From Bacteroidota bacterium (GTDB lineage: Bacteria > Bacteroidota > Bacteroidia > Chitinophagales > LD1), in contig JAFDYP010000639.1 of the NCBI GenBank assembly GCA_018267355.1, positions 1-16,461 on the forward strand: a DNA stretch of 16,461 nucleotides, given 5' to 3'. Shown piece by piece: positions 604 through 12,398 of this stretch. The translations under genes were made by a program, and so were the position numbers. The notes beneath the pieces are model-generated. The model was given only the letters and a program-made list of their open reading frames with translations. It had not been told where the DNA came from and did not search any database. How positions within the stretch are numbered: the first letter of the stretch is position 1; every line of letters begins with the position of its first letter.

Positions 604-2190
604 TCATACCGGTGCCACATCCCTGGAGCGAAGGTCTACCACCGTCCTGTTGAGATATGGGATCAGGGCGCTAAGCAGTATCATAGCTAGTAGTATATAG
701 GCCATGACCTCATAGTAGTCCATGGCATAGCGCATCTGCGTCTGGGTCTGAGCGGCATTTATCAATAGCTTATTCGCCATTTTGGCCGCTGCGTCTGGTT
801 GCATGCCATGGGATGTAAGTCGCTGCGCATACATAGCCAGCGTACGTCGCACCAGTGGATTAGTCCGTGTCAGCGTGTCCTGCAGGGCGCTATAGTGCTG
901 CCCCCGCGAGTAGAGCTCGTAGTAATTCATCACCGCTATGCTGGTGCAAAAACCCAGATATCTGATCGTAAGACCGATGGCGGAAGCGGAGGCTCCCATA
1001 GAGGCGGGCACAGAGGAGATGGCGTACACGATGGCCGGCACCATGATCACCCCCACACCGAGTCCTTGTATCATGAGCGGCACGTAGTAGTTGTCTTCAT
1101 CGGCCTGCGTGGCAAACAAAAAGAACATGCGTGCATGATAAACCAAAAGCAATGAAAAACCACTCATCCATATGTACCGTACGTTCCACTTGCGCAGGAT
1201 GAGCATGCAAGCCATAACTACTCCTGCTACAAGACCCGCAATATTGGCAAGGTTGATATATGAGAGATGCCTGGGGTCTAATTTGAGTACAGCGGTGAAA
1301 AACGAATTGGTAAGTCCTGAGGCAAACCTGCAGATATACATCGTGTATAGAATGGTCATACCAATTACAAAGTTGCTGAAAGAAAATACCCGTAGATCGG
1401 TATAGGGTCTTTTGATATGGTGCTGGCGTATAAGATAGACTGACAGGCACAGCAGGAGTGCTGCAAGCGCATATCTGAAAGCAGGATCCTGCAGCCAATA
1501 GTGCTCCTGGCCGTACACCAGCATATATCCTATCAGGATGAGGCCTACGCTATAGAGTACAAAACTCTGCCAGTCGAGATAAGAGAGAGGAAAACGGCGA
1601 TGCAAGCGTACAGTATGCATGGTAACAAGCAGCAGCACAAAGCCCGGAATGTATAAGAAGGATGCATGGAGATAGAGCGTATTGAAATCAAATGCATCTA
1701 TCAGGTCTGCAGAGATCAGGTTGTTGAGCGGCATGGCTATGAGTAGCAGGCCAAACATAACGGAAAAGCCCACCTCGCGTGCAACTTCGCTATGGAAACG
1801 TGTGAAGAGGAGGGTCAATGACAGATTGACTGTACAGGCAAATAACATACCCTGGAAGAAACGAACGGGATAGAGTAAATACACATCTGAAATAGAAAAG
1901 CAGAAAACCGTGCTCACGATCTGCAGGAAAGTGAAAATGACAAAATACTCTTTGGTAGCCAGGTAGCTAAAAAACCTACGCTCGAGGCTGTAAAATCCGG
2001 CATATCCAGCATAGAACAAGATAACGGCAAACTGTATATCTGCCGGCTCACAACCATAGTAGCCCGCTGCAGCGCTGACATTGGCCATAGGCAGGAAGAA
2101 GACCACCAGGCTAGGTATGATCATGCTAAAAAGCGTGATGAATATCAACCAGCCCGGCGCCCATTTGCGAAAGATACGATACTCATTCAT
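604..2190 (-). CDS. MFS drug/efflux transporter, EmrB/QacA-like (DHA2, 14-TM) inner-membrane pump
   Basis: About 528 residues, rich in hydrophobic segments consistent with the 14-helix DHA2 layout, the pump partner of EmrA-type adaptors. Recognisable family features are an RFFQGMLFA motif (DHA2 motif B region), a late SSVPASMGASASAIGLTIRY segment, and a C-terminal soluble loop (SRGQHYSALQ, then LTRTNPLVRRTL) like the one before the last helix of EmrB. The canonical motif A between TM2 and TM3 is degenerate here (LERRFFSYLATKEY instead of GxLaDrxGrk). An ATG at 2217 is in frame, but I chose the ATG at 2190. It overlaps the upstream adaptor's stop in ATGAATGA and is preceded by an AAAGGA-like stretch, whereas 2217 would mean a 35-nt overlap. 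It is last in the TolC-EmrA-MFS operon. Substrate cannot be told from sequence; toxic hydrophobic compounds are the family norm. Confidence 0.85.
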   Translation of the reverse strand: MNEYRIFRKWAPGWLIFITLFSMIIPSLVVFFLPMANVSAAAGYYGCEPADIQFAVILFYAGYAGFYSLERRFFSYLATKEYFVIFTFLQIVSTVFCFSISDVYLLYPVRFFQGMLFACTVNLSLTLLFTRFHSEVAREVGFSVMFGLLLIAMPLNNLISADLIDAFDFNTLYLHASFLYIPGFVLLLVTMHTVRLHRRFPLSYLDWQSFVLYSVGLILIGYMLVYGQEHYWLQDPAFRYALAALLLCLSVYLIRQHHIKRPYTDLRVFSFSNFVIGMTILYTMYICRFASGLTNSFFTAVLKLDPRHLSYINLANIAGLVAGVVMACMLILRKWNVRYIWMSGFSLLLVYHARMFFLFATQADEDNYYVPLMIQGLGVGVIMVPAIVYAISSVPASMGASASAIGLTIRYLGFCTSIAVMNYYELYSRGQHYSALQDTLTRTNPLVRRTLAMYAQRLTSHGMQPDAAAKMANKLLINAAQTQTQMRYAMDYYEVMAYILLAMILLSALIPYLNRTVVDLRSRDVAPV

Positions 2191-3247
2191 GGTTCTGTCC
2201 TTTCCGTACGTAGACATTGGCGTTCATACCTGATTTTAGCAGCTCCGTCTCTCTCCTGTCTCCTTCTATCCTGATACGCACGGGTATACGCTGCACTATC
2301 TTTACATAGTTTCCTGTGGCATTATCTGGTGGCAACAGCGAAAAGCTGGAGCCAGTAGCCGGAGACAGCGATATAACCCTACCATGAAAAACATGGTCAG
2401 GATAGGCGTCTGCTACTATGCGGACCGTATCCCCGATATGCATATGTGCCACCTGGGTTTCCTTATAGTTGGCTACTACCCATTTGTCAGTCTCGTTATC
2501 TACGATATATGCCAGTACTTCACCAGCATTGATCATCTGGCCCGGCTCTACCGTTCTCTTGCCTATACGCCCATCGTAGGGGGCTAGTATTGCTGTGTAG
2601 CTCACATCCAGTTTGTGACGCTCTAGCAGCGCTTTGAGTCGCACGATCTCTGCATGGACTACCGCCTTTTCAGCCACTATGTCCTCTACCTTTGCATTGG
2701 CAGCATCATAGTTTTCCAGCGCTGTACGGTACTCACTCTTGTAGACATCCAGTGTGGCTTTTACATTTTCGATCTGCTGGCCTGTGGCTGCTTCTTCCGT
2801 ATAGAGTTTTTGATACCTGGCATATTCCAGTTCTTGCTTCCAGACTTTGGCCTGGCCGGCAGATGTTTGGGCTTCTGCCGCACCGGCAGCCTTTTGTAGT
2901 GTACGGGCATTGCTCTCCAGTACCTGCAGTTGAGCCTGAGCTTTAGCTATTGATGCCTCTGTCTGCACCTGTTGTATCATATACTCACGGCTATCTATGA
3001 GCAGAAGGGTATCACCCCGGTGTACCGGTTGATTTTCATCAAAACGCACATCCGTGATAAATCCTCCCGCCCGGGATATCACAGGGTTTACGTATTCCTC
3101 TACCTGTGCGTCATCAGTCTGCTCGTAGCGGTGATATCTCCATAGTATCCGGGCACCCCATATAAAAAGGGCCAGTACCATCATGCCTGCGAGCCAACCC
3201 GTGATGCGCGTGATAAGCCTGTCTATGGCTGTATATTGTTTTTTCAT
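2183..3247 (-). CDS. emrA: HlyD/EmrA-family periplasmic adaptor (membrane fusion protein)
   Basis: 354 residues. A single N-terminal membrane helix (about 17-37) anchors it in the inner membrane. TDDAQVEEYVNPVISRAGG then begins the biotinyl-lipoyl-like half, completed by a second half near AILAPYDGRIGKRTVEPGQM (about 217-237). Between them lies a long alpha-helical hairpin (about 80-205) that should reach the TolC channel. The C-terminal beta-barrel carries WVVANYKETQVAHMHIGD and FSLLPPDNATGNYVKIVQR, which match the EmrA family signature closely. This is why I call EmrA rather than a generic HlyD. It starts 5 nt after the upstream channel gene's stop, and its own stop overlaps the MFS start, indicating translational coupling within one transcript. 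Role: bridging the MFS pump and the outer-membrane channel during efflux. Confidence 0.92.
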   Translation of the reverse strand: MKKQYTAIDRLITRITGWLAGMMVLALFIWGARILWRYHRYEQTDDAQVEEYVNPVISRAGGFITDVRFDENQPVHRGDTLLLIDSREYMIQQVQTEASIAKAQAQLQVLESNARTLQKAAGAAEAQTSAGQAKVWKQELEYARYQKLYTEEAATGQQIENVKATLDVYKSEYRTALENYDAANAKVEDIVAEKAVVHAEIVRLKALLERHKLDVSYTAILAPYDGRIGKRTVEPGQMINAGEVLAYIVDNETDKWVVANYKETQVAHMHIGDTVRIVADAYPDHVFHGRVISLSPATGSSFSLLPPDNATGNYVKIVQRIPVRIRIEGDRRETELLKSGMNANVYVRKGQNHE

Positions 3248-3252
3248 TTTAG

Positions 3253-4581
3253 TTATAGATTGCCTATGATATTTTCCAGCAGGTAGTACCGGTCCTGCGC
3301 GGTGATACGTGCAGCCTCCAGATCAAACCGCGTCTGTAGCACCTGTATATCTGCATCCAGGAGGTCTGTGATGAGTGCAGCCTGATTGAAGTATGCCTGG
3401 CGTATGATACGTTCGTTCTCCACTGCGCGATCCACGCTGACCAGAGCCACATCTATCTGTACCAGTGACTCCCGGTATCTGAGATATGCCTCACGTACCT
3501 GCTGTCTCACGTGGTCCTCCTGATCTCTATGCGCTTCTTCTTCCTGCTCCAGCTCCATCTTTGCTGTGCGTGTCTTATAGATATTGTGATAAAAAGATGA
3601 TATAGGGAAAGACGCTTTGATACCACCTATGCCTATAGAGTACCAATAAGCATTGTAAGGGTAAAGCATGATCTGCGGATTGCCGTAGTGAAAGTCTCCC
3701 ATGAGACCTACTGTAGGCCTCACGTTTGCGCGGATCTGCCTCAGGTGCAGCCTGCTGAGTGACGTCTGCTGCTCAGAGAGGTGAAGCGCATAGGAGTGAT
3801 CCATAGCCATGTTCAGACATTCCTCATAGCTACCCGGATCTTTTGTCAGCACTTCAGTCGGCGATACCGGGCTGATGATCTTTTCATCCGGCTCGCCTAT
3901 CAGTATATTAAGCTTCTGGCTGGCAATAGATATATCGTTTTGTATCTGCACTAGCGTCATCCTACGCTTTGAGAGATCTAGCTCCACGCGCAGCACATCA
4001 CTCTTGAGAACCACTCCGTTCCGGTTTAGGGATTGTATTTCCCGGAGCTGCCGCTCCTGATCAGCTATATCTTTTTGAATGAGATCGCGAAAGATCGTCG
4101 ACTTCTGTAGCTCCAGATACAGACTGGCAGCCTGGTACCTGATATTTGAGGCCGTCTGGTCCTGCTGTATAAGTGCCATCTGATAGAGGGCTTTATTCTC
4201 CTTGACTTTTAGGTTGTTCTTATTGCCGTTATACAGATTGAGATAGAAATCTGTACCGGCACTGTACAACACATGTATCACATCATGCTGAGATGGTGCT
4301 GACAATCCATTTTCGTAGACAGGCATATTAGTAGCGCCCAGCACGGAGCCGGCGATATTGATATCAGGCAGGCGCTCCATTTGAGCATCTAGTATGCCCT
4401 CTTGGGCCGCGGCAGCACCTTTTCGCCTTATTTCTATGGCCCTGCTATGTGATGCAGCCCTATTCCAGACATCCGGCAGTGTCAGGGTCAGCGTATCAGT
4501 GGATACGCCGGGTATGGCGTATGAGGCAGAAAGTGGTCCTACGCATATCAGTAGCGGCAGGACTTTCCTTAGGTAGTTCAT
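3253..4581 (-). CDS. TolC-family outer membrane efflux channel (OEP)
   Basis: 442 residues, close to the usual size for the family. A signal peptide is visible (MNYLRKV, hydrophobic core LLICVGPL, cleavage likely after about residue 22, near ASYA). The mature part shows the two internally related OEP repeats. The first begins around LPDVWNRAASHSRAIEIRRK with the typical AQMERLPDINI. The second ends in LLDADIQVLQTRFDLEAA and RYYLLENIIGNL, a pattern common at TolC C-termini. Long Gln/Glu/Arg-rich helices make up the periplasmic tunnel. It is first in the operon, followed after 5 nt by the EmrA-type adaptor, so it is the dedicated outer-membrane exit for this pump. A TATCTTTG box lies 18 nt upstream of the start codon. 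Confidence 0.92.
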   Translation of the reverse strand: MNYLRKVLPLLICVGPLSASYAIPGVSTDTLTLTLPDVWNRAASHSRAIEIRRKGAAAAQEGILDAQMERLPDINIAGSVLGATNMPVYENGLSAPSQHDVIHVLYSAGTDFYLNLYNGNKNNLKVKENKALYQMALIQQDQTASNIRYQAASLYLELQKSTIFRDLIQKDIADQERQLREIQSLNRNGVVLKSDVLRVELDLSKRRMTLVQIQNDISIASQKLNILIGEPDEKIISPVSPTEVLTKDPGSYEECLNMAMDHSYALHLSEQQTSLSRLHLRQIRANVRPTVGLMGDFHYGNPQIMLYPYNAYWYSIGIGGIKASFPISSFYHNIYKTRTAKMELEQEEEAHRDQEDHVRQQVREAYLRYRESLVQIDVALVSVDRAVENERIIRQAYFNQAALITDLLDADIQVLQTRFDLEAARITAQDRYYLLENIIGNL

Positions 4582-4598
4582 TTGTTGATTTGACGATG

Positions 4599-4606
4599 CA
4601 AAGATA
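4599..4606 (-). promoter_or_regulatory. Putative -7 box (TATCTTTG) of the exporter operon promoter
   Basis: On the minus strand TATCTTTG matches the Bacteroidota sigma-ABfA -7 consensus TAnnTTTG exactly and lies 17 nt before the channel gene's ATG, implying a leader of about 10 nt. No good -33 TTTG is seen at the usual spacing, which may mean activator dependence. That reading is inference. Confidence 0.5.
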
Positions 4607-4633
4607 CAGTGCCGGTATATGGCCCGTTTTTCT

Positions 4634-4651
4634 TAAATAGTCAATTATTTA
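4634..4651. promoter_or_regulatory. AT-rich inverted repeat in the divergent exporter/AraC intergenic region
   Basis: TAAATA and TATTTA form perfect 6-bp arms around GTCAAT. The repeat is roughly central in the 115-bp region between the divergent channel gene and the AraC-type regulator, upstream of the operon's -7 box. It could be an operator, but short AT-only arms occur easily by chance. Confidence 0.25.
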
Positions 4652-4696
4652 TCTGATCCGGCCAAAAAGCATTTTCTTTGTTTCCAAACATCTTCT

Positions 4697-5482
4697 ATGG
4701 GTCTGATAGCAGCACTCCCAGATATAGATCTGCAGCCGAAAGCGGCTTTTGTCATGCATGAAAAATTTGAGCGGCTGATCCCCCTGCATCAGCACACTAA
4801 AGGACAGCTCACCTACATAGAAGGAGGTATTGCGTATATCACGATCCATTTTAAGACCTACATCGTCCCAGCCCATCATTTTTTCTGGATCCCGCGCGGC
4901 ATGCCCCATCTGCTGCGCGTGAGTAACTCAGCTACAGTGGTCCGCAACATCTATTTCTACACACATGACGATGCACGCGATGAGTTTTATAGTAAACTAG
5001 GCATCTACCCAGCCTCCAGGCTACTACTGGAGATGATAAAGTATACTGAGCGATGGGATGGCCGCCACGTAAAGTCTAATAATGAAAACTTTGAATTTCT
5101 GATCGCCTTAAAAAATATCCTACCTGAGATGGGGCATAAAACCCTGCCCATCATACTGCCTATCACTGAAGATGAATCCATGAAGCGCATACTACGATAC
5201 ATGGAAAGTAGAATTTCATTGCCGCTCACACTGGAGCAAGTCAGCAGTCAATTTAATATGAGTACCAGGTCGCTCTCCCGGTTTTTCCAGGCCAGACTAC
5301 AGATCTCTTTTCTGCAATACCTCAAAACCCTTCGGATGGTAAAAGCAATCGAAATGCTGCTAAAAACACAGAAACCTATCAGTGAGATAGCGCTGCTCGT
5401 GGGATATGATAGTATCGGTTCTTTTAGCAATGCCTTCTTTGCGCTCACTCAGTCGCGCCCTTCAGACTTCCGGAGGGTATAA
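4697..5482 (+). CDS. AraC-family transcriptional regulator with N-terminal cupin sensor domain
   Basis: 261 residues. The N-terminal half is a cupin-like ligand-binding fold (about 15-100): HQHTKGQLTYIEGG followed by VPAHHFFWIPRGMPHLLR, the His/Pro-rich pattern typical of AraC_binding domains. The C-terminal 95 residues hold the two HTHs: LTLEQVSSQFNMSTRSLSRF (first recognition region), then ISEIALLVGYDSIGSFSNAF and SRPSDFRRV, the canonical AraC tail. The start used is the first ATG in frame and leaves the cupin intact. It is divergent to the TolC-EmrA-MFS operon across 115 bp, so it probably controls that operon in response to a small ligand, and may control itself. A TTTCTTTG sequence upstream is only a weak -7 candidate. 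Family assignment is firm; the regulatory target is inferred from position. Confidence 0.9.
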   Translation: MGLIAALPDIDLQPKAAFVMHEKFERLIPLHQHTKGQLTYIEGGIAYITIHFKTYIVPAHHFFWIPRGMPHLLRVSNSATVVRNIYFYTHDDARDEFYSKLGIYPASRLLLEMIKYTERWDGRHVKSNNENFEFLIALKNILPEMGHKTLPIILPITEDESMKRILRYMESRISLPLTLEQVSSQFNMSTRSLSRFFQARLQISFLQYLKTLRMVKAIEMLLKTQKPISEIALLVGYDSIGSFSNAFFALTQSRPSDFRRV

Positions 5483-5653: not shown

Positions 5654-8600
5654 CTATTTTGTCACCACCACTTTGCGACGTACATCTGACCTGTCTCTGG
5701 CCATCAGATAGTATATGCCGGAGGCTATATTTCTGACGGTAGCTGTATATGGTACATTAGCTTCTATTTTCATAGTAGCTACCTGTGCTCCTATACCATC
5801 CACCAAAACGAAGTCCCCGCTGACATCACACGTGATCACAAATGTTCCGTTATTGGGATTAGGGTACAGGTCTAGCTGGATCGTGCCAGCAGGTACTTCG
5901 TCTATGCCGGTGCACACTTTCAGTGTGATCGAGTCTGTGGCGCTGTTTGAGCAGCCGTTATTGTCAGTATAGCTGTAGGTTATCGCATAGTTGCCCGGTG
6001 TACCGCTCACCAGTCCTATGGTATCATTCACTACTATAATACCGCTGAATGTGCCTCCTGTAGGTGTAGCACCCTGCAGTGTGACAGGAGGATAGTTGCC
6101 CAGGCAGAAGGCGCTCTGAGGCAAACTAAAGGAGACATTGGGCAGCGGATTGCCATTGGCCAGGGTGATCGTGTCTGTCACATGGCAACCGTTGCCATCT
6201 ATAGAAATATAAGGGTATGCACCGGGCGCAAGATTGGTGGCCTGCGCCGTGGCCAGCAGGGCGATAGCATCTATCTCTACCCAGTCAGTGGCAGAGTCGT
6301 TGGCTACATCGATCCTGACTGCATCTACTCCATAGGTGCCTGGTAGTGGCACGGATAGTATCGTAGCTACCGCTGAGTCTGCATGTGCATGCCGCTGGAA
6401 TACCCTATGCCAGATATGAGCAGGATACTCGCGTACGAAAACACTATCTATATATCCCGGTGTATTGGTCACATATATCTCGACACTGGTAGCTGCTATA
6501 GGAGTGCTGTATCCTACTATCACAGTATCGCGCTGATCGCCATAGTCAGCAGACGTCCAGGCCGTCTGGATATCTCCATAGTTAGGATAGGTGTTTGGCG
6601 CGCCCAGCAGCTGATATGCTGACCAGCTACCAGGGCTCGTATTATATTCCCGGGACCTATACAAGACGGTATCAGCCCACTGCGGACCTGCCTGGTACAT
6701 TTGGCCATTGAAAGAGATGGAATAGGCACCAGTAGAATCCTCTGTAAATAATACAGAACCATCTGTCAGGCCCACGCATGATACCGGATGCGAGACAGAT
6801 AAGACAGGTACGGCCGGAGCATTTACACTCACCGTAGTGGTCACGATCGTATCACAGCTCAATGTGTCTGTATACGTACCCGAAAGGCTGTAGGTGTGGA
6901 TGCCTACTGTGATGTGCTGGCCCTGACAGACCGCAAATGACTGGGTAGGATAGATCACAGGCAATACTGAAACAAGCGCAGAATCTGTAGCTGCGCAGCC
7001 ATTGGAACTAGTAGCAGTGGCTACGAATACGCTACTATGTGCCGGGGACACGGTGATGGCACTCGTAGAATCTGCTGTACTCCACACTACAGGTACCGCG
7101 GTACTGGCCGTCAGCAGGGTGCTGGCTCCGGGGCAGAGTGTGATCTGATGCGGGGAAACCGTAAGCGCCGGTGATGGCTGTCCGTCCGGTATCGTCAGGC
7201 TGTCCGTATAGGCACAGCCGTGAGAATCCGTCACTGTAAAATGACTGACACCGGCAGAGAGATGGCCGATAGTGACCGGGCCCAGCAAACCGACAGCATC
7301 TATCTCTACCCAGTTGGTCGCAGTGTTGGTAGCTACACCCATATTCACCTGATCGATCGGATATGCGCCTGACAGGGGGATATGCAGTATGACAGACGCA
7401 TATACATTACTCTGTACAGGCTGGACCGCATAGACGATATGCCATACATTAGTTCCGGCCTCTCTGACAGATACGGTATCTACCATACCGGTAGTGTATG
7501 TTTCGTAGATCGCTATCTCACTGGCCTGCACGGGAGGATTGTATCCCAGTACCACTGAGTCCCTATGGCTACCATAGCTCTGAGGTGTCCATGAGGTGCC
7601 TATATCACCATAGCTGGGATAAGTGTTTGGCGCTCCTAGGAGCTGAGTAGCAGCGTAGCCACCCGAACTGTATTGTGTACTATAGGCTACCACAGAACTC
7701 GCCCAGCTATAGGTAGTACTGTAAGTATGACCACCCAAAGCAACCGTAAATAAGCTGGAGCTATTTGCTGACACCTGTATCTCCCCATCTGTATACCCAT
7801 GGCATGTGACTATATGTGCCAGCGTATCCATATAGGTGAAGTGGCCATTGATAAAGGTCACATCTGATGTCACAATGCTATCACACCCGAATGAGTCTAC
7901 ATAAGAACCACTGACCGTGTAGAGGTGGCCATGAATCGTGAGAGATGGCTGGTTGCATACGTTATAGATATCATGTACCTGCGGTATAGTAGAGAAGCTG
8001 ATGACCACATTCACTATACTATCGCAACTATATGGTACGGCATGTACACCAGATCCATGATAGGTCACTCCTCTGAAGGTCACGCTATCATATTGACAGA
8101 TGGTGAAAGGATACGAAATAACAGGGACAGATGAATACTGTACAGACACGGTGTCTTTTGCCACGCAGCCATTGGTATCAGTGACCGTCACAGTAAATGT
8201 GCCTGACCCCTGATAGACCAGCGTATCACCGCAGCTATAGTTTGTACCGTCATACCAGAATATATCTTCCAGTGGTGCACCGCCTGTAGTGGTCGTACTC
8301 CAGTGGTTCAGCTGAGGGCCGCATCCCTGTTGCGCGGGGTTGATCACAGTACTCAGGCCGGCACAGATGTTTGCAGCACCATATTCGTACGCACCGATAT
8401 CTGCTGTGCCGGTACGGGCGAAAACACGCTCATCTGCAGATGGAGCTACTGCATTATCAGCTGCATCGATAGCCGGGCTGGATGCTATCAGCGCCAGGGT
8501 ACCCTCATAGCGGCCATTGCCGCGCAATACGGTATCCAATACAGCCGAAGCTGTACTGCCATAAATGTTACCTGTCAATACACCTGTCAGGCTGGCACCT

Positions 8601-9451
8601 ATCGTATCTGCTATGATATTATGTCCATTGGCAGAGGTATAGCCGCCAAAAAGGTCATTGCCTGCTGTATCTGCGGTGTTGCCTACAAATATATTGTTGC
8701 TAAGAGACACCTGACCACCGCCGTAGATGCCGCGCATGATAGCGCCGCCGCGTGAGGGACTGTGATTGCCAAAGAAGGTACTATTGCGCACGAGTAGCTT
8801 GCCGCCTTGAGGATTGGAGATGGCGCCACCGCCGAAAACCACGCTTGCACAATAATTATGTACGAAGGTGCAGTTAGTGATCTCCATATACCCGAAGTTA
8901 TTGCAGACTGCACCACCACCGCTCAGGTAGCCGTAACCACCTGTAGTGTAGTTGCTATCAAAGGTGCAATTAGTGATAAAAATAGTATCGCCATTGTTGA
9001 ATACGGCGCCCTCATCCGGAGAGTGGTTTCCTTTCAGCAGGCAGTGGTCGAGTTTGACCGTGATACCTCCAGATCCTACAAAAACAGCAGACCCAAAGGC
9101 GCCCACTGCATTATTCAGAAAGGTAAAATTGCGGATGGTCAAATGTGTGCCGGCAGGCACGCTTTGAAACCAGGTAGTGCCCATCTGGGCAGACAGATCC
9201 TTAGGCCCATTGATCTCGATGGAGGTGGCCGGCACAGGATCTACGTGATAGGGTCCGTCCACGTTGATGTTGCTAGGCGTACACACATTGATCACGTGAG
9301 GATGATCCGGTGTGGTAGGATGCGTGTTGGCATCAGCTATGGCATCGTGCAGCGAGCCGGGTCCCGTGCCGGCCCGGGTGACGGTATAGGTATTGGCAAA
9401 TGCCAGGCTACCTATCATCAGCCATGTGAGGGTAAAGAATAACTTTCTCAT
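5654..9451 (-). CDS. T9SS-secreted beta-helix / SprB-repeat surface protein (adhesin-like)
   Basis: 1265 residues. A signal peptide (MRKLFFTLTWLMIGSLAFA) is followed by a right-handed parallel beta-helix (about 25-355) with Asn/Gly-rich turns such as LLKGNHSPDEGAVFNNGD. The helix is closed by SSPAIDAADN and GTADIGAYEYGA, the usual end of this family. After it come a Cys-bearing Ig-like stretch and three short repeats ending CDSIV/CDTIV (about 448-484, 497-532, 839-872). There are two SprB-like repeats, each split by a discoidin-like module (about 575-727 and 920-1066), and two further Ig/PKD-like segments. The C-terminus (from about 1190) is a type A sorting domain: LDLYPNPNNGTFVITCDVSG, then GIYYLMARD and KVVVTK. 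It should cross the outer membrane by T9SS and be cell-surface attached or released. It lies 107 bp behind a LytTR/kinase pair and has its own promoter-like region. Binding target unknown; adhesion is inferred from architecture. Confidence 0.88.
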   Translation of the reverse strand: MRKLFFTLTWLMIGSLAFANTYTVTRAGTGPGSLHDAIADANTHPTTPDHPHVINVCTPSNINVDGPYHVDPVPATSIEINGPKDLSAQMGTTWFQSVPAGTHLTIRNFTFLNNAVGAFGSAVFVGSGGITVKLDHCLLKGNHSPDEGAVFNNGDTIFITNCTFDSNYTTGGYGYLSGGGAVCNNFGYMEITNCTFVHNYCASVVFGGGAISNPQGGKLLVRNSTFFGNHSPSRGGAIMRGIYGGGQVSLSNNIFVGNTADTAGNDLFGGYTSANGHNIIADTIGASLTGVLTGNIYGSTASAVLDTVLRGNGRYEGTLALIASSPAIDAADNAVAPSADERVFARTGTADIGAYEYGAANICAGLSTVINPAQQGCGPQLNHWSTTTTGGAPLEDIFWYDGTNYSCGDTLVYQGSGTFTVTVTDTNGCVAKDTVSVQYSSVPVISYPFTICQYDSVTFRGVTYHGSGVHAVPYSCDSIVNVVISFSTIPQVHDIYNVCNQPSLTIHGHLYTVSGSYVDSFGCDSIVTSDVTFINGHFTYMDTLAHIVTCHGYTDGEIQVSANSSSLFTVALGGHTYSTTYSWASSVVAYSTQYSSGGYAATQLLGAPNTYPSYGDIGTSWTPQSYGSHRDSVVLGYNPPVQASEIAIYETYTTGMVDTVSVREAGTNVWHIVYAVQPVQSNVYASVILHIPLSGAYPIDQVNMGVATNTATNWVEIDAVGLLGPVTIGHLSAGVSHFTVTDSHGCAYTDSLTIPDGQPSPALTVSPHQITLCPGASTLLTASTAVPVVWSTADSTSAITVSPAHSSVFVATATSSNGCAATDSALVSVLPVIYPTQSFAVCQGQHITVGIHTYSLSGTYTDTLSCDTIVTTTVSVNAPAVPVLSVSHPVSCVGLTDGSVLFTEDSTGAYSISFNGQMYQAGPQWADTVLYRSREYNTSPGSWSAYQLLGAPNTYPNYGDIQTAWTSADYGDQRDTVIVGYSTPIAATSVEIYVTNTPGYIDSVFVREYPAHIWHRVFQRHAHADSAVATILSVPLPGTYGVDAVRIDVANDSATDWVEIDAIALLATAQATNLAPGAYPYISIDGNGCHVTDTITLANGNPLPNVSFSLPQSAFCLGNYPPVTLQGATPTGGTFSGIIVVNDTIGLVSGTPGNYAITYSYTDNNGCSNSATDSITLKVCTGIDEVPAGTIQLDLYPNPNNGTFVITCDVSGDFVLVDGIGAQVATMKIEANVPYTATVRNIASGIYYLMARDRSDVRRKVVVTK
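6254..6690 (-). repeat. Discoidin-like module, copy 2 (within the surface protein)
   Basis: Second copy, with QLLGAPNTYPNYGDIQ, RDTVIVGYSTP, IYVTNTPGYIDSVFVREYP and DWVEIDAIALL. The blocks shared with copy 1 are clear, while the linking sequence has diverged, so this is an old internal duplication rather than a recent one. Confidence 0.7.
7276..7711 (-). repeat. Discoidin-like module, copy 1 (within the surface protein)
   Basis: This segment encodes about 145 residues with the blocks QLLGAPNTYPSYGDIG, RDSVVLGYNPP, IYETYTTGMVDTVSVREAG and NWVEIDAVGLLG. The same blocks recur in the same order in copy 2 (6254-6690). The alternating beta-strand pattern and conserved WVEIDAV ending suggest a galactose-binding/discoidin-like beta-sandwich. 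I do not recognise a specific named family. Confidence 0.7.
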
Positions 9452-9468: not shown

Positions 9469-9483
9469 ATAGCTCAAAGCTAT
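9469..9483 (-). promoter_or_regulatory. Putative -7 box inside a perfect palindrome upstream of the surface protein gene
   Basis: On the minus strand TAGCTTTG (9482-9475) matches the Bacteroidota -7 consensus TAnnTTTG, 23 nt before the ATG. It is embedded in a perfect inverted repeat with 6-bp arms ATAGCT/AGCTAT and a 3-nt centre. A protein bound to the palindrome would cover the promoter. The duplicated 33-bp element lies 24 nt upstream of the box. Confidence 0.5.
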
Positions 9484-9506: not shown

Positions 9507-9539
9507 TTTATGGTATCAAATGCATCAGAATGGTGATGA
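9507..9539 (-). promoter_or_regulatory. Duplicated 33-bp element, copy E1 (candidate LytTR regulator site)
   Basis: Read on the minus strand it begins TCATCACCAT and ends ATACCATAAA. The two ACCAT cores are direct repeats with a 20-bp period. It matches element E2 (11533-11565) at 28 of 33 positions, with the outer 10 bp on each side identical. It lies 55 nt before the surface-protein start codon and 24 nt before its -7 box. Paired direct repeats with a period of about two helical turns are the known layout of LytTR-family sites, and a LytTR regulator is encoded two genes upstream. The link to that protein is inference. Confidence 0.6.
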
Positions 9540-9550
9540 GATGCATAATC

Positions 9551-9562
9551 CTGACAGGTCAG
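9551..9562. repeat. 12-bp palindrome overlapping the kinase stop codon
   Basis: CTGAC-AG-GTCAG is a perfect palindrome that includes the kinase gene's stop codon, 11 nt upstream (minus-strand sense) of E1. It has no T-tract, so it is not a standard terminator. A TGACAGGT core is also present next to E2 at the other gene junction. Confidence 0.35.
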
Positions 9563-11487
9563 TCCAGGGCAAAACTAAGTGTAAAGACGGCGCCGTTGTC
9601 GTTTTGACTCGTTAGCGTACCGCGCAGCTGCCGGGTCAATTCATTTACGATACGCATACCCAGTGTGCGGGTAGAGCGCAAGTCAAAGGATACAGGCATG
9701 CCGACACCATTATCCGCATACCTGATGGTGCACAGGCCGTTCGCGTCTCTACTCACGTTTATATTGATAGCCCCTCCGACCTCGACTATTCCGCCGTACT
9801 TGATAGAGTTTGTGATCAGCTCATTTAGTATCACACCAAGCGGTATAGCACGCTCCATATCCAGCGTGAGGTCCTCGGGGCTTACAGTGACATTTACAGC
9901 TAGCGCCTGCGCTCCAAAGACCAGTTTCAGGTCAGCACATAGCTGTGTGATGTAGTCGGCCAGATGTATGGCCGACAGCGCCTCCTGGGCATATAGCTTC
10001 TGATGGATCAGCGCGATACTGCGCACCCGGTTGTGGCTTTCTCGCAGGGCTGCAGCGGCATTTTCATCTGATATAGAGTTGGCCTGTAGGCTGAGCAGGC
10101 TCGATACTATTTGCAGGTTATTCTTGACTCGGTGATGTATCTCGAGCATCAGCGTCTCCTTCTCTGCTGCTTGTCTTTCTATCTGCTCCTTCTGCGTCTC
10201 CAGTAGTTTATTAGCGCGCTGACTATTGCGATAGCTGCGCACTACTATAAGTATGAGCAGGACCAGCAGCAGTAGACCTGATGCTGCCACTATGATGATC
10301 GCTCTCAGGTTGCTGTTTTCACGTGTCTTTTCTTTCACTTGGTACTGCACCTCCAGGTCGCGCTGCGCCATCTCCGCCCGCAGTTGCATATTTGTTGCAT
10401 TCTGACGCTGTGCATCATTGAGTACACTATCGCCCCACCTGTTATACTCCTGGTAGTACCGCAGGGCGAGGCTATCCTGTCCGTGCTGATGCGCTATATC
10501 ACTTAGTGTTTTATTAGCTTCTTTGATATAGAGCTTAGCATGGTATTCTGTTGCGTCCTTCAGTAGTCGTCCGGCATATTTTTCTGCGAGGTCTACGTGA
10601 CCAATCTTCGCATACAGCCTGCTCAATAGGTCCAGACCATTCATCACATTCATGGGCCTTTTGATGCTATCCATTACGGCTACTGCCTGCAGCAGGCATT
10701 TTTCCGCATCCTCTGTCTTGCCCATCTCGAGGTAGATATCTCCCATACTGGTCAGCGAGGAGGCATGCTCATAGTTGTTTTGTCCGTTCAGCCGGGCCAT
10801 ATCTCTGACCACAGTGAGCATGATCTCTGCGGAGTCATCCTGGCCTGCACGGTGGTATTCGCTGGCTATATTTGCTGCTATTAGTTCTGCAAATCCCCAG
10901 TTCTTCATACTCCGGACCACTGCTGCGGCGCGCTGATAGTAGCGGATAGTGAGCATAGGGTCGCGCTCCAGGGCATCATATACTGAGGCGATGTTATTGG
11001 AGATCGTAGCTATCATCCGGTCATTTTGGCTCTGCTCCGCCACCCGTAGTCCCTCCAGATAGTACTGCAGTGAGCGGTCATAGTCGCCCATATCCTGATA
11101 CATGCCGGCCGTGAGGCTCAGACATGAGGCTTCGTAGAAACCACTACCAGCCTTTCGCGCATAGCTGATCGCTTTCTGATAGAGCTCTATCCCCTCGGCT
11201 GGTTTGTTTTCTATCACGCGCACCAGGCCCATAGTGCGGTATCCATCGGCCAGCAGCAGCGCATCACCGTGAGAGAGGTTTACCTCCTGCACTGCCAGTA
11301 TCCATGCCGAGTCGTTTTGTATGAACTTCTTCTCCCAGGCCATCTCGCCATAGATGCGTGCGCGCGCAGTGTCAGAGTGCACAGCCGACAGCCGGGGACC
11401 GAAAGACACAACCTCTGCACTCTGTGCATGGCATGTGATCAGGCATAGCAGCGATAGCCCAAATGCGAGAGTATAGCGAGCGGTCAT
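9559..11487 (-). CDS. TPR-containing membrane sensor histidine kinase (HisKA_2 type)
   Basis: 642 residues. A signal peptide (MTARYTLAFGLSLLCLITCHAQ) leads into a periplasmic TPR solenoid (about 40-360), visible in helical pairs such as YYLEGLRVAEQSQNDRM and LTSMGDIYLEMGKTEDAEKC. One membrane helix (about 392-417) follows, then a coiled coil. The HisKA_2 dimerisation box MLEIHHRVKNNLQIVSSLLS has its phosphoacceptor His near residue 451. The HATPase domain shows the N box LNELITNSIKYGG (about 554), the G box DNGVGMP (about 594) and RTLGMRIVNELTRQLRG. It lies 93 bp behind the LytTR response regulator, which is the obvious partner. It senses an unknown envelope signal and should phosphorylate D54 of that regulator. 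A copy of the duplicated element lies upstream, suggesting autoregulation. Confidence 0.92.
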   Translation of the reverse strand: MTARYTLAFGLSLLCLITCHAQSAEVVSFGPRLSAVHSDTARARIYGEMAWEKKFIQNDSAWILAVQEVNLSHGDALLLADGYRTMGLVRVIENKPAEGIELYQKAISYARKAGSGFYEASCLSLTAGMYQDMGDYDRSLQYYLEGLRVAEQSQNDRMIATISNNIASVYDALERDPMLTIRYYQRAAAVVRSMKNWGFAELIAANIASEYHRAGQDDSAEIMLTVVRDMARLNGQNNYEHASSLTSMGDIYLEMGKTEDAEKCLLQAVAVMDSIKRPMNVMNGLDLLSRLYAKIGHVDLAEKYAGRLLKDATEYHAKLYIKEANKTLSDIAHQHGQDSLALRYYQEYNRWGDSVLNDAQRQNATNMQLRAEMAQRDLEVQYQVKEKTRENSNLRAIIIVAASGLLLLVLLILIVVRSYRNSQRANKLLETQKEQIERQAAEKETLMLEIHHRVKNNLQIVSSLLSLQANSISDENAAAALRESHNRVRSIALIHQKLYAQEALSAIHLADYITQLCADLKLVFGAQALAVNVTVSPEDLTLDMERAIPLGVILNELITNSIKYGGIVEVGGAININVSRDANGLCTIRYADNGVGMPVSFDLRSTRTLGMRIVNELTRQLRGTLTSQNDNGAVFTLSFALD

Positions 11488-11501
11488 AATGTCTCAGGGT
11501 A

Positions 11502-11509
11502 CAAACTGC
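11502..11509 (-). promoter_or_regulatory. Weak -7-like box (GCAGTTTG) upstream of the kinase gene
   Basis: Minus-strand GCAGTTTG keeps the TTTG half of TAnnTTTG but not the TA. It lies 14 nt before the kinase ATG. Its main support is positional: it sits 23 nt from E2, nearly the same as the 24 nt between the good -7 box of the surface protein gene and E1. A weak box would fit an activator-dependent promoter. Confidence 0.35.
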
Positions 11510-11532
11510 ACACAATCCCGGAGGGAAGCAAG

Positions 11533-11565
11533 TTTATGGTATGAAGTGCAGCAATATGGTGATGA
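11533..11565 (-). promoter_or_regulatory. Duplicated 33-bp element, copy E2 (candidate LytTR regulator site)
   Basis: Minus-strand TCATCACCAT and ATACCATAAA flank 13 bp that differ from E1 at five positions. The ACCAT cores again repeat with a 20-bp period. It lies 45 nt before the kinase start codon, exactly 10 nt (about one helical turn) closer than E1 is to its gene. It sits in the 93-bp gap between regulator and kinase, so it could drive an internal promoter for the kinase. Confidence 0.6.
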
Positions 11566-11568
11566 CAG

Positions 11569-11591
11569 GTATACAGCATATCACTGTATAC
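11569..11591. repeat. Inverted repeat overlapping the response-regulator stop codon
   Basis: GTATACAG and CTGTATAC are perfect 8-bp arms around a 7-nt loop that contains the regulator's stop codon. On the minus strand it is followed after 3 nt by E2. There is no T-tract. It could be an attenuating hairpin between the two genes or a dyad binding site. Confidence 0.45.
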
Positions 11592-12309
11592 GCCTTATTC
11601 TGTCAAATAGGTCATCCTTGTAGTTGCGGCTAAGGGGTATTGTGGCCTTTCCTATAGCCACCTCTGTATGGCTGAGCGCATCCACTTTTTGCAGGTGTAT
11701 CACATAGCTTTTGTGCACCTGCATAAAAAAATCTGCGGGCAGATTTGGCAGGAATTCGCGGAAACTGGAGCGGATAATATGCTTTGCCTTATCAGTCACG
11801 ATGTGGATATAGTTGCCATCGCTCTCTAGGTAGTGAATATCGGAGATGTTCAGCTTGATATATTTCGTATCAGTTTTGACAAATACGCTTGCATCTATCT
11901 GCCAGGGAGAGGGGGTGGTCGCCACTGCCTGCTCTGTGCCGGCAAAATTGGCCAGAGCCACTTCTATGCAGGTATACAGGTCCTCCCGGCCGAAAGGCTT
12001 GACCAGATAGCCGTTTGGCCTGAGAGCTGCCGCATGGGTGACAGTAGCGCGATCAGAGTGAGAGGTGATAAAAACAAAAGGTTTGTGATATTTATCGCGC
12101 ACGAGCTGAGCCAGATCGAGACCCGTACGGCCGTGGCCCAATTGTATGTCCATCAGGATGAGGTCCGGATGCTGCGATTCGAGAGCTGCCACGGCTTCAT
12201 CATAGCTATAGGCGGCAGGCAAAACTTCGTACCCTATCCGCATCAGCATATCGCTCATATCCATGGCCACGAGCGACTCATCTTCTACTATCAATATCCT
12301 GATTTGCAT
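11581..12309 (-). CDS. LytTR-family response regulator (REC-LytTR)
   Basis: 242 residues. The receiver domain (about 3-120) has the acidic pocket E9/D10, phosphoacceptor D54 in LILMDIQLG, T82 in FITSHSD and K104 in LVKPFG, so all catalytic positions are present. The C-terminal LytTR DNA-binding domain (about 140-240) shows KYIKLNISDIHYLESDGNYI, then HIIRSSFREFLPNLP, FMQVHKSYVIH and IPLSRNYKDDLFDRI, all standard for the fold. LytTR proteins bind pairs of direct repeats and usually activate nearby genes. It is first of a regulator-kinase-surface protein series. A 9-bp-armed palindrome touches its start codon, and the adjacent E1/E2 elements are plausible targets. Confidence 0.94.
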   Translation of the reverse strand: MQIRILIVEDESLVAMDMSDMLMRIGYEVLPAAYSYDEAVAALESQHPDLILMDIQLGHGRTGLDLAQLVRDKYHKPFVFITSHSDRATVTHAAALRPNGYLVKPFGREDLYTCIEVALANFAGTEQAVATTPSPWQIDASVFVKTDTKYIKLNISDIHYLESDGNYIHIVTDKAKHIIRSSFREFLPNLPADFFMQVHKSYVIHLQKVDALSHTEVAIGKATIPLSRNYKDDLFDRIRRIQ

Positions 12310-12328
12310 ATCAGTATGAATACTGATA
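12309..12328. promoter_or_regulatory. 20-bp palindrome abutting the response-regulator start codon
   Basis: TATCAGTAT-GA-ATACTGATA has perfect 9-bp arms. Its edge base is the A of the regulator's ATG. A third TATCAG lies nearby at 12348-12353. A TATCTTTT -7-like box (12363-12370, minus strand) lies further upstream, so the palindrome would fall in the 5' leader, either as an operator or as an RNA hairpin limiting translation. The 89-bp gap 12310-12398 holds nothing else I can support. Confidence 0.5.
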
Positions 12329-12398
12329 GCTAATATAAAACAGTTAATATCAGATCGTAAGGAAAAGATAGATTTATATCTGCGGATATCTCAGTGTC

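Follow-up and report, generated by a model that had tools for sequence, protein, structure and literature searches.

In the window analysed here (16,461 nt, positions 1 to 16,461 of contig JAFDYP010000639.1, assembly GCA_018267355.1, from a Bacteroidota bacterium, genome G000), two similar elements, E1 and E2, lie before two consecutive genes, and the question raised by this locus is whether they are operators, and of which regulator. The gene order on the minus strand is dnaJ, LytTR response regulator, TPR-HisKA_2 kinase and large secreted protein, with E2 in the regulator-kinase intergenic region and E1 in the intergenic region between the kinase and the secreted protein. The genes concerned are as follows.

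11581 to 12309, minus strand: response regulator with receiver and LytTR domains, 242 aa (Pfam Response_reg, 75.5 bits; LytTR, 61.4 bits), the presumed binder of E1 and E2.
9559 to 11487, minus strand: TPR/HisKA_2/HATPase histidine kinase, 642 aa, proposed target behind E2.
5654 to 9451, minus strand: large secreted surface protein, 1265 aa, proposed target behind E1.

In the surface protein, the choice-of-anchor Q domain scored 42.3 bits (cut-off 25) and a T9SS sorting tail stayed under the Pfam cut-off (22.7 against 27); the tail of the protein's ortholog in G008, a genome of another genus, scored above it (53.3). The kinase matched the Porphyromonas FimS model at 52.4 bits, far under the model cut-off of 600. 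In a comparison of six regulators, D54, K104 and a large part of the LytTR domain were invariant, and D54 is, from the family, probably the phosphorylated residue. A single significant relative (3d6w, E 0.00033) was obtained when the LytTR domain was compared with solved structures. LytTR regulators are common in Bacteroidota: 3-13 LytTR domains per genome were found in the nine genomes counted, and 7 in G000.

Just past the surface-protein gene, a tripartite efflux operon (outer-membrane factor, HlyD-like and MFS proteins; 604-4581, minus strand) faces an AraC-type regulator (4697-5482, plus strand). ORFs of similar start and length follow the surface-protein gene in G004 and G001, of the same genus; in G003, also of this genus, a different gene comes next and the contig ends soon after. 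The dnaJ-regulator intergenic region (12310-12398, minus strand) contains a block, TTATATTAGCTATCA, common to the four same-genus genomes compared, which is possibly the regulator's own promoter.

The two elements were delimited as follows, the bit scores being those of a profile described below.

9507 to 9546, minus strand: E1, candidate operator element of 40 nt between the kinase and surface-protein genes (46.8 bits).
11533 to 11572, minus strand: E2, candidate operator element between the regulator and kinase genes (45.0 bits).

A first-pass annotation of this DNA had described both as 33-nt elements, and E1 was taken here as 40 nt by lengthening those 33 nt 5' on the gene strand. Its measurements of the repeat were reproduced: E1 (9507-9539) and E2 (11533-11565) are identical at 28 of 33 positions with the same outer 10 nt at both ends, both lie on the gene (minus) strand, each contains ACCAT-N15-ACCAT (20-bp period), and the distances to the start codons (E1, 55 nt; E2, 45 nt) differ by 10 nt. 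When extended, the repeat covers 41 nt with 80% identity. The two intergenic regions were dinucleotide-shuffled 1000 times: the top 33-mer match between the shuffled regions averaged 17.2 and reached at most 22, against 28 in the actual regions; the repeat is confirmed as real and beyond chance.

The cluster was found in four of the seven genus genomes, namely G000, G004, G003 and G001, the kinases of the last three being 96%, 78% and 76% identical to that of G000, and both E1 and E2 are kept in all of them. When G000, G003 and G001 were aligned at E1, 11 of 13 columns of the distal and 13 of 13 of the proximal half-site were invariant, against 2 of 13 in the adjoining upstream stretch and 5 of 20 on the downstream side. 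At E2 the downstream flank had 4 of 20 invariant columns, and since the upstream flank is fairly conserved too (15 of 20 and 9 of 13), the contrast is clear there on the downstream side only. In the three remaining genus genomes, searches for a regulator ortholog (E 1e-30) and for a kinase match (E 1e-40) found nothing, and the profile scan gave no strong element site. Regulator ortholog and elements thus occur together in 4 of 4 same-genus cluster genomes and neither occurs in the other three, a co-occurrence that spans a small number of independent lineages (some three within the genus, one in the next) and includes a cluster-less genome, G002, that is 73% complete (G000, 77%; G001, G003 and G004, 95-97%). 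The first-pass annotation had named lack of conservation in relatives keeping the cluster as grounds against its reading; this was tested, and conservation of both sites along with the cluster is supported.

Beyond the genus, a kinase search of the family gave matches at E 1e-40 or better in 7 of 30 genomes, 5 of them full length. G008 has the whole cluster (identity of regulator 64%, kinase 49%, surface protein 39%) and carries the element in both intergenic regions, at the same two places, in diverged form: its E1 and E2 agree at 25 of 33 positions (shuffle maximum 22), and, compared with the elements of the window, they share 22-23 of 33 positions (p ≤0.001; maxima in shuffles 21-22). The kinase ortholog of G008 (locus L097) contains an in-frame TGA at codon 27, which could reflect decay, an error or a later start. 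G007 and G029 have a kinase-domain match only and are without a strong profile match.

Among 396 genomes of the order (an even draw from a larger group), 10 had kinase matches at E 1e-60 or better; the only close match outside the family was in G378, of another family (regulator 51%, kinase 38-39% identity), and in four more (G176, G187, G238 and G316), with kinases about 30% identical, the kinase precedes the regulator. A draw of 394 genomes from the family of G378 gave one kinase match at E 1e-90, G378 itself. The G378 site before a secreted protein agrees with E1 at 25 of 33 positions (maximum 24 in 2000 shuffles), and its kinase is preceded by TGGTACCTAA, a 10-nt sequence repeated without mismatch at 21-bp spacing. 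This kinase-side region gave no clear match (p 0.48 and 0.54 to E1; 0.22 and 0.03 to E2), the two G378 regions agree with each other at 20 of 33 (p 0.24), and the G378 site was non-significant in the genome-wide profile scan (E 0.245); G378 counts as weak support. In its locus (L108, 2-7015, minus strand) a short ORF comes after the E1-like site, and next a giant secreted protein, bearing laminin-G and HYR domains, that matches the window's surface protein in short stretches only. The target may have been swapped in G378 and the regulatory pair retained.

The repeated unit is a half-site of about 10 bp, roughly TGCATYTSAT, in direct orientation at 21-bp spacing, the canonical LytTR layout. Half-sites were located by offset comparison and with a YpdB-operator probe.

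9536 to 9545, minus strand: E1 distal half-site, TGCATCTCAT.
9515 to 9524, minus strand: E1 proximal half-site, TGCATTTGAT, offset from its distal partner by 21 bp.
11562 to 11571, minus strand: E2 distal half-site, TACCTGTCAT, the weaker of the two.
11541 to 11550, minus strand: E2 proximal half-site, TGCACTTCAT, offset from its distal partner by 21 bp.

Of the two candidate operators, E2 is the weaker. With a 13-nt unit, 12 elements of six genomes gave 96 of 156 matches at the 21-bp offset, 44 of 156 at 20 bp, and 77 of 156 at 26 bp, the next best offset in the range 12 to 32. The corresponding counts at 21 and 20 bp were 62 and 32 of 104 in the window's genus and 34 and 12 of 52 outside it; with a 9-nt window the contrast was smaller (60 and 53 of 108), owing to a one-base displacement of the ACC part in the window's genus. 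The 20-bp basic period of the first-pass annotation therefore falls, and ACCAT at 20 bp as the basic unit was ruled out by the 21-bp register (offset counts and YpdB probe); it is a trait of the window's genus, the CAC/ACC part having a 21-bp period in G008 and G378. The 21-bp register was picked after the alignments had been viewed, and the YpdB operator, an outside motif, served as the independent check. Half-sites of 10 nt lying 11 nt apart agree with LytTR-type operators, described as two repeats of 9-11 nt with 11-13 nt between (PMC4847170, excerpt). At two half-site letters (distal/proximal), the window's genus has CA/AC in 7 of its 8 elements and CA/CC in E2 of G001; both G008 elements have CA/CA and both G378 elements AC/AC. 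By these letters, the E1 and E2 copies tend to share their lineage's variant.

The YpdB operator, a GGCATTTCAT direct repeat of 21-bp period at the E. coli yhjX promoter (PMC4847170, excerpt), was used as a probe. Its best match on either strand fell in the same place, strand and register in all 10 intergenic regions of five genomes, with scores of 12-16 of 20 and shuffle p ≤0.007 in nine regions and 0.14 in one, the regulator-kinase region of G001 (mononucleotide shuffles, as against the dinucleotide shuffles used for the E1/E2 pair). It agrees with E1 at 16 of 20 letters and with E2 of G008 also at 16 of 20, in the same register. Half-sites resembling a known operator were thus present in five genomes, significantly so in 9 of 10 regions; in G378 the right register was obtained in one of two regions (p 0.07 there and 0.53 in the other). 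Since LytTR operators have no common consensus (PMC4847170, excerpt), this likeness is counted as supporting evidence. The region upstream of the regulator gene (G000 only) held no comparable site, its best YpdB-operator score being 10 of 20 on the opposite strand.

Each element is followed by promoter-like boxes.

9475 to 9482, minus strand: -7-like box TAGCTTTG (TAnnTTTG consensus), 24 nt past the 33-nt E1; its -33 is poor (TTA).
11502 to 11509, minus strand: weak -7-like box GCAGTTTG, a poor match to TAnnTTTG, 23 nt past the 33-nt E2.
11529 to 11531, minus strand: candidate -33 TTG of the kinase promoter, 19 nt upstream of the -7-like box; all four cluster genomes of the genus retain it.

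TAnnTTTG is the -7 box of sigma-A, at -12 to -5, in Flavobacterium (PMC9723704, excerpt). The distances of 24 nt for E1 and 23 nt for E2 were as the first-pass annotation had them. In 5 of 5 genomes the end of the 33-nt element lies 24-25 nt from TAGNTTTG in the E1 class, and 23 nt from GCAGNTTG or GCATGTTG in the E2 class, whose box pattern (GCA..TTG) was chosen after viewing it. The E1-like site of G378 lies 24 nt from TAATTTTC, and its kinase site has no such -7-like box. The element-to-box distance is fixed at 23-25 nt while the spacer sequence diverges. Measured by the Flavobacterium -7 ruler, the E1 half-sites span roughly -75 to -66 and -54 to -45, ending 32 nt before the -7 box; those of E2 end 31 nt before the -7-like box and 9 nt before the candidate TTG. 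This placement just upstream of -35 (here -33) is that of a LytTR operator, the repeats of described autoregulatory LytTR systems being separated in most cases by 12 bp and strongly favouring a position 10 bp upstream of -35 (PMC6193735, excerpt).

An inverted repeat (ATAGCT-TTG-AGCTAT, 9469-9483, minus strand) overlaps the -7 box of the surface-protein promoter. Both of its arms are altered as a pair in G001 (ATAGTT-TTG-AACTAT), the arms in G003 can pair with G-U, and G008 has a different palindrome, TTGATGCATCAA, at nearly the same position.

It is unlikely that the regulator represses from E1 and E2 rather than activating. E2 does reach as far as the candidate -33 TTG, and the LytTR-domain protein CoxC represses via direct repeats that overlap the -35 box (PMC11347149, excerpt), but the E2 half-sites stop 9 nt short of the TTG, which matches LytTR-activator placement (PMC6193735, excerpt), and each promoter has one poor box (the -33 at E1, the -7 at E2), a feature presumably frequent in activated promoters.

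To examine the genome-wide distribution, a profile was built from the ten elements of five genomes, and 16 of the 30 family genomes and G378 (17 genomes) were scanned, with scoring of the best 150 of about 2900-5200 first-look candidates per genome. Among these best 150 candidates each, the ten training sites scored 34.6-46.8 bits, all in the cluster and two per genome in the five cluster genomes, and the next best match in the 17 genomes scored 20.1 bits; no third strong site was found in any of them. Because the ten sites are the profile's own training set, the informative part of this result is the lack of a third strong site. The 20.1-bit match was inside a coding gene of G002. Five of the weaker profile matches (L119, L120, L121, L135 and L143) were checked and all were within ORFs, those at L119 and L143 in copies of one gene.

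Pattern searches gave a similar distribution. A strict pattern with up to 3 mismatches recovered E1 and E2 only in their own genome. A 17-position pattern, scanned in 10 genomes with up to 2 mismatches, recovered at 0-1 mismatch E1 and E2 of the four same-genus cluster genomes and one match, with 1 mismatch, in G002, which thus had the top match outside the cluster in the profile scan and the pattern scan alike; besides these eight cluster sites it gave 59 matches, against 68 for a reversed-pattern control, and a pattern with spacing one base longer recovered 0 known sites. The many unrelated copies that the first-pass annotation had said would tell against its reading were looked for by this genome scan and were not found. 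A wider regulon was also considered and set aside, the pattern and profile scans having given no further site at their sensitivity. The arrangement looks like an operon-specific regulon of two promoters.

It is quite improbable that E1 and E2 are operators of a different factor, another LytTR protein or other regulator, that co-controls the cluster. G000 does encode 7 LytTR domains, and the AraC-type regulator lies downstream at 4697-5482; assignment to the cluster-head regulator among those domains rests on adjacency and co-occurrence. Against a different factor, the elements track the regulator ortholog (present in all 4 same-genus genomes that have it, with no strong site in the 3 that lack it), although those three genomes still have 3, 10 and 6 other LytTR domains, both strong sites of each genome are inside the cluster, and a 21-bp direct repeat suits LytTR. 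A nearby, co-occurring LytTR regulator (61.4 bits; 4 of 4 against 0 of 3 genomes) is what a LytTR operator would be expected to have.

Less probable still is a role at the RNA level, such as signals for attenuation or for mRNA processing between the genes, after each stop codon. The elements do begin 15-19 nt past the stop codon in the window's genus, and the small inverted repeat at the surface-gene -7 box shows its paired change in G001. However, the conserved unit is a direct and not an inverted repeat, the window has 0 Rfam matches at gathering thresholds, the distance to the -7-like box is fixed whereas the two G008 elements lie at different distances, 47 and 10 nt, from the stop codon, and a known protein operator matches in the same register. 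Recent or chance duplication of a functionless intergenic stretch, for which two alike stretches within about 2 kb might speak, is hardly credible, chance being excluded by the shuffles and duplication already contradicted by conservation of both places in five genomes of two genera.

The reading preferred here, with a probability of roughly 0.83, is that E1 and E2 are a dedicated operator pair of the LytTR regulator at the head of the cluster, activating the kinase and the surface protein. Its operon-specific part follows from conservation with the cluster, the lack of a strong third copy, and a layout and promoter distance as in described operators; we infer that this regulator binds the elements, that it activates rather than represses, and that phosphorylation is involved. 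In the proposed mechanism the TPR-HisKA_2 kinase would phosphorylate the regulator, two LytTR domains per element would bind on one DNA face via half-sites 21 bp apart, directly ahead of the -33 region in a promoter of the Bacteroidota sigma-A type, and the phosphorylated regulator would thereby bind and activate both promoters, raising the kinase itself and the secreted choice-of-anchor Q surface protein. The regulator gene, which has no such site, is presumably expressed separately, and feedback would for that reason pass through the kinase and not the regulator. Of the first-pass interpretation, the LytTR operon-specific site before the kinase and surface protein stands without its ACCAT/20-bp unit, and the autoregulated two-component system holds in part at most, a candidate operator (E2) preceding the kinase gene and no comparable site the regulator gene.

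A defined candidate operator with two promoters and a single likely target protein could link a sensor kinase to one surface protein. In the Bacteroidota LytTR literature, as covered in part by titles and abstract openings, no mapped site for a LytTR response regulator was found. More speculatively, and at fairly low probability, a regulator made separately with feedback on the kinase alone might form a private two-promoter switch, possibly bistable, that commits the cell to one surface protein and has been kept through at least two Bacteroidota genera, the YpdB-like half-site type being maybe shared across phyla. As a fresh example of an already known type of gene switch, ordinary in kind, the proposed pair of LytTR operators is convincing.

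Among known systems, E. coli YpdA/YpdB likewise has a LytTR response regulator with its own histidine kinase and a direct repeat at 21 bp. It is of the LytS/LytTR type (PMC4847170, excerpt), whereas the kinase here is TPR-HisKA_2; its target is a transporter and not a surface protein and the kinase itself, and the promoters here, unlike those of YpdA/YpdB, look to be of the Bacteroidota -33/-7 type. In the autoregulatory LytTR Regulatory Systems (LRS; HdrRM and BrsRM), 9-bp direct repeats serve positive feedback on the own operon and control of other genes (PMC6193735, excerpt), and the Listeria lmo0984 repeat, GCATCTTAG-12 bp-GCATGTTAC, resembles the half-sites here (same excerpt). There, however, a LytTR regulator is paired with an inhibitory membrane protein (PMC6193735, excerpt), and membership of the LRS was rejected for the present system, in which a regulator with a receiver domain is partnered by a histidine kinase. 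From the same phylum come the LRS-like operons of Bacteroides, with the predicted arrangement TCCGGTATTCA-11bp-ACCGGAAATCA, 11 bp, TGTA-19 bp-TATCTTTG (PMC6193735, excerpt). As here, paired direct repeats stand before a Bacteroidota -33/-7 promoter, but the period is 22 bp, the half-site sequence is another, the regulator has transmembrane segments, and a membrane protein takes the place of the histidine kinase as partner (PMC6193735, excerpt).
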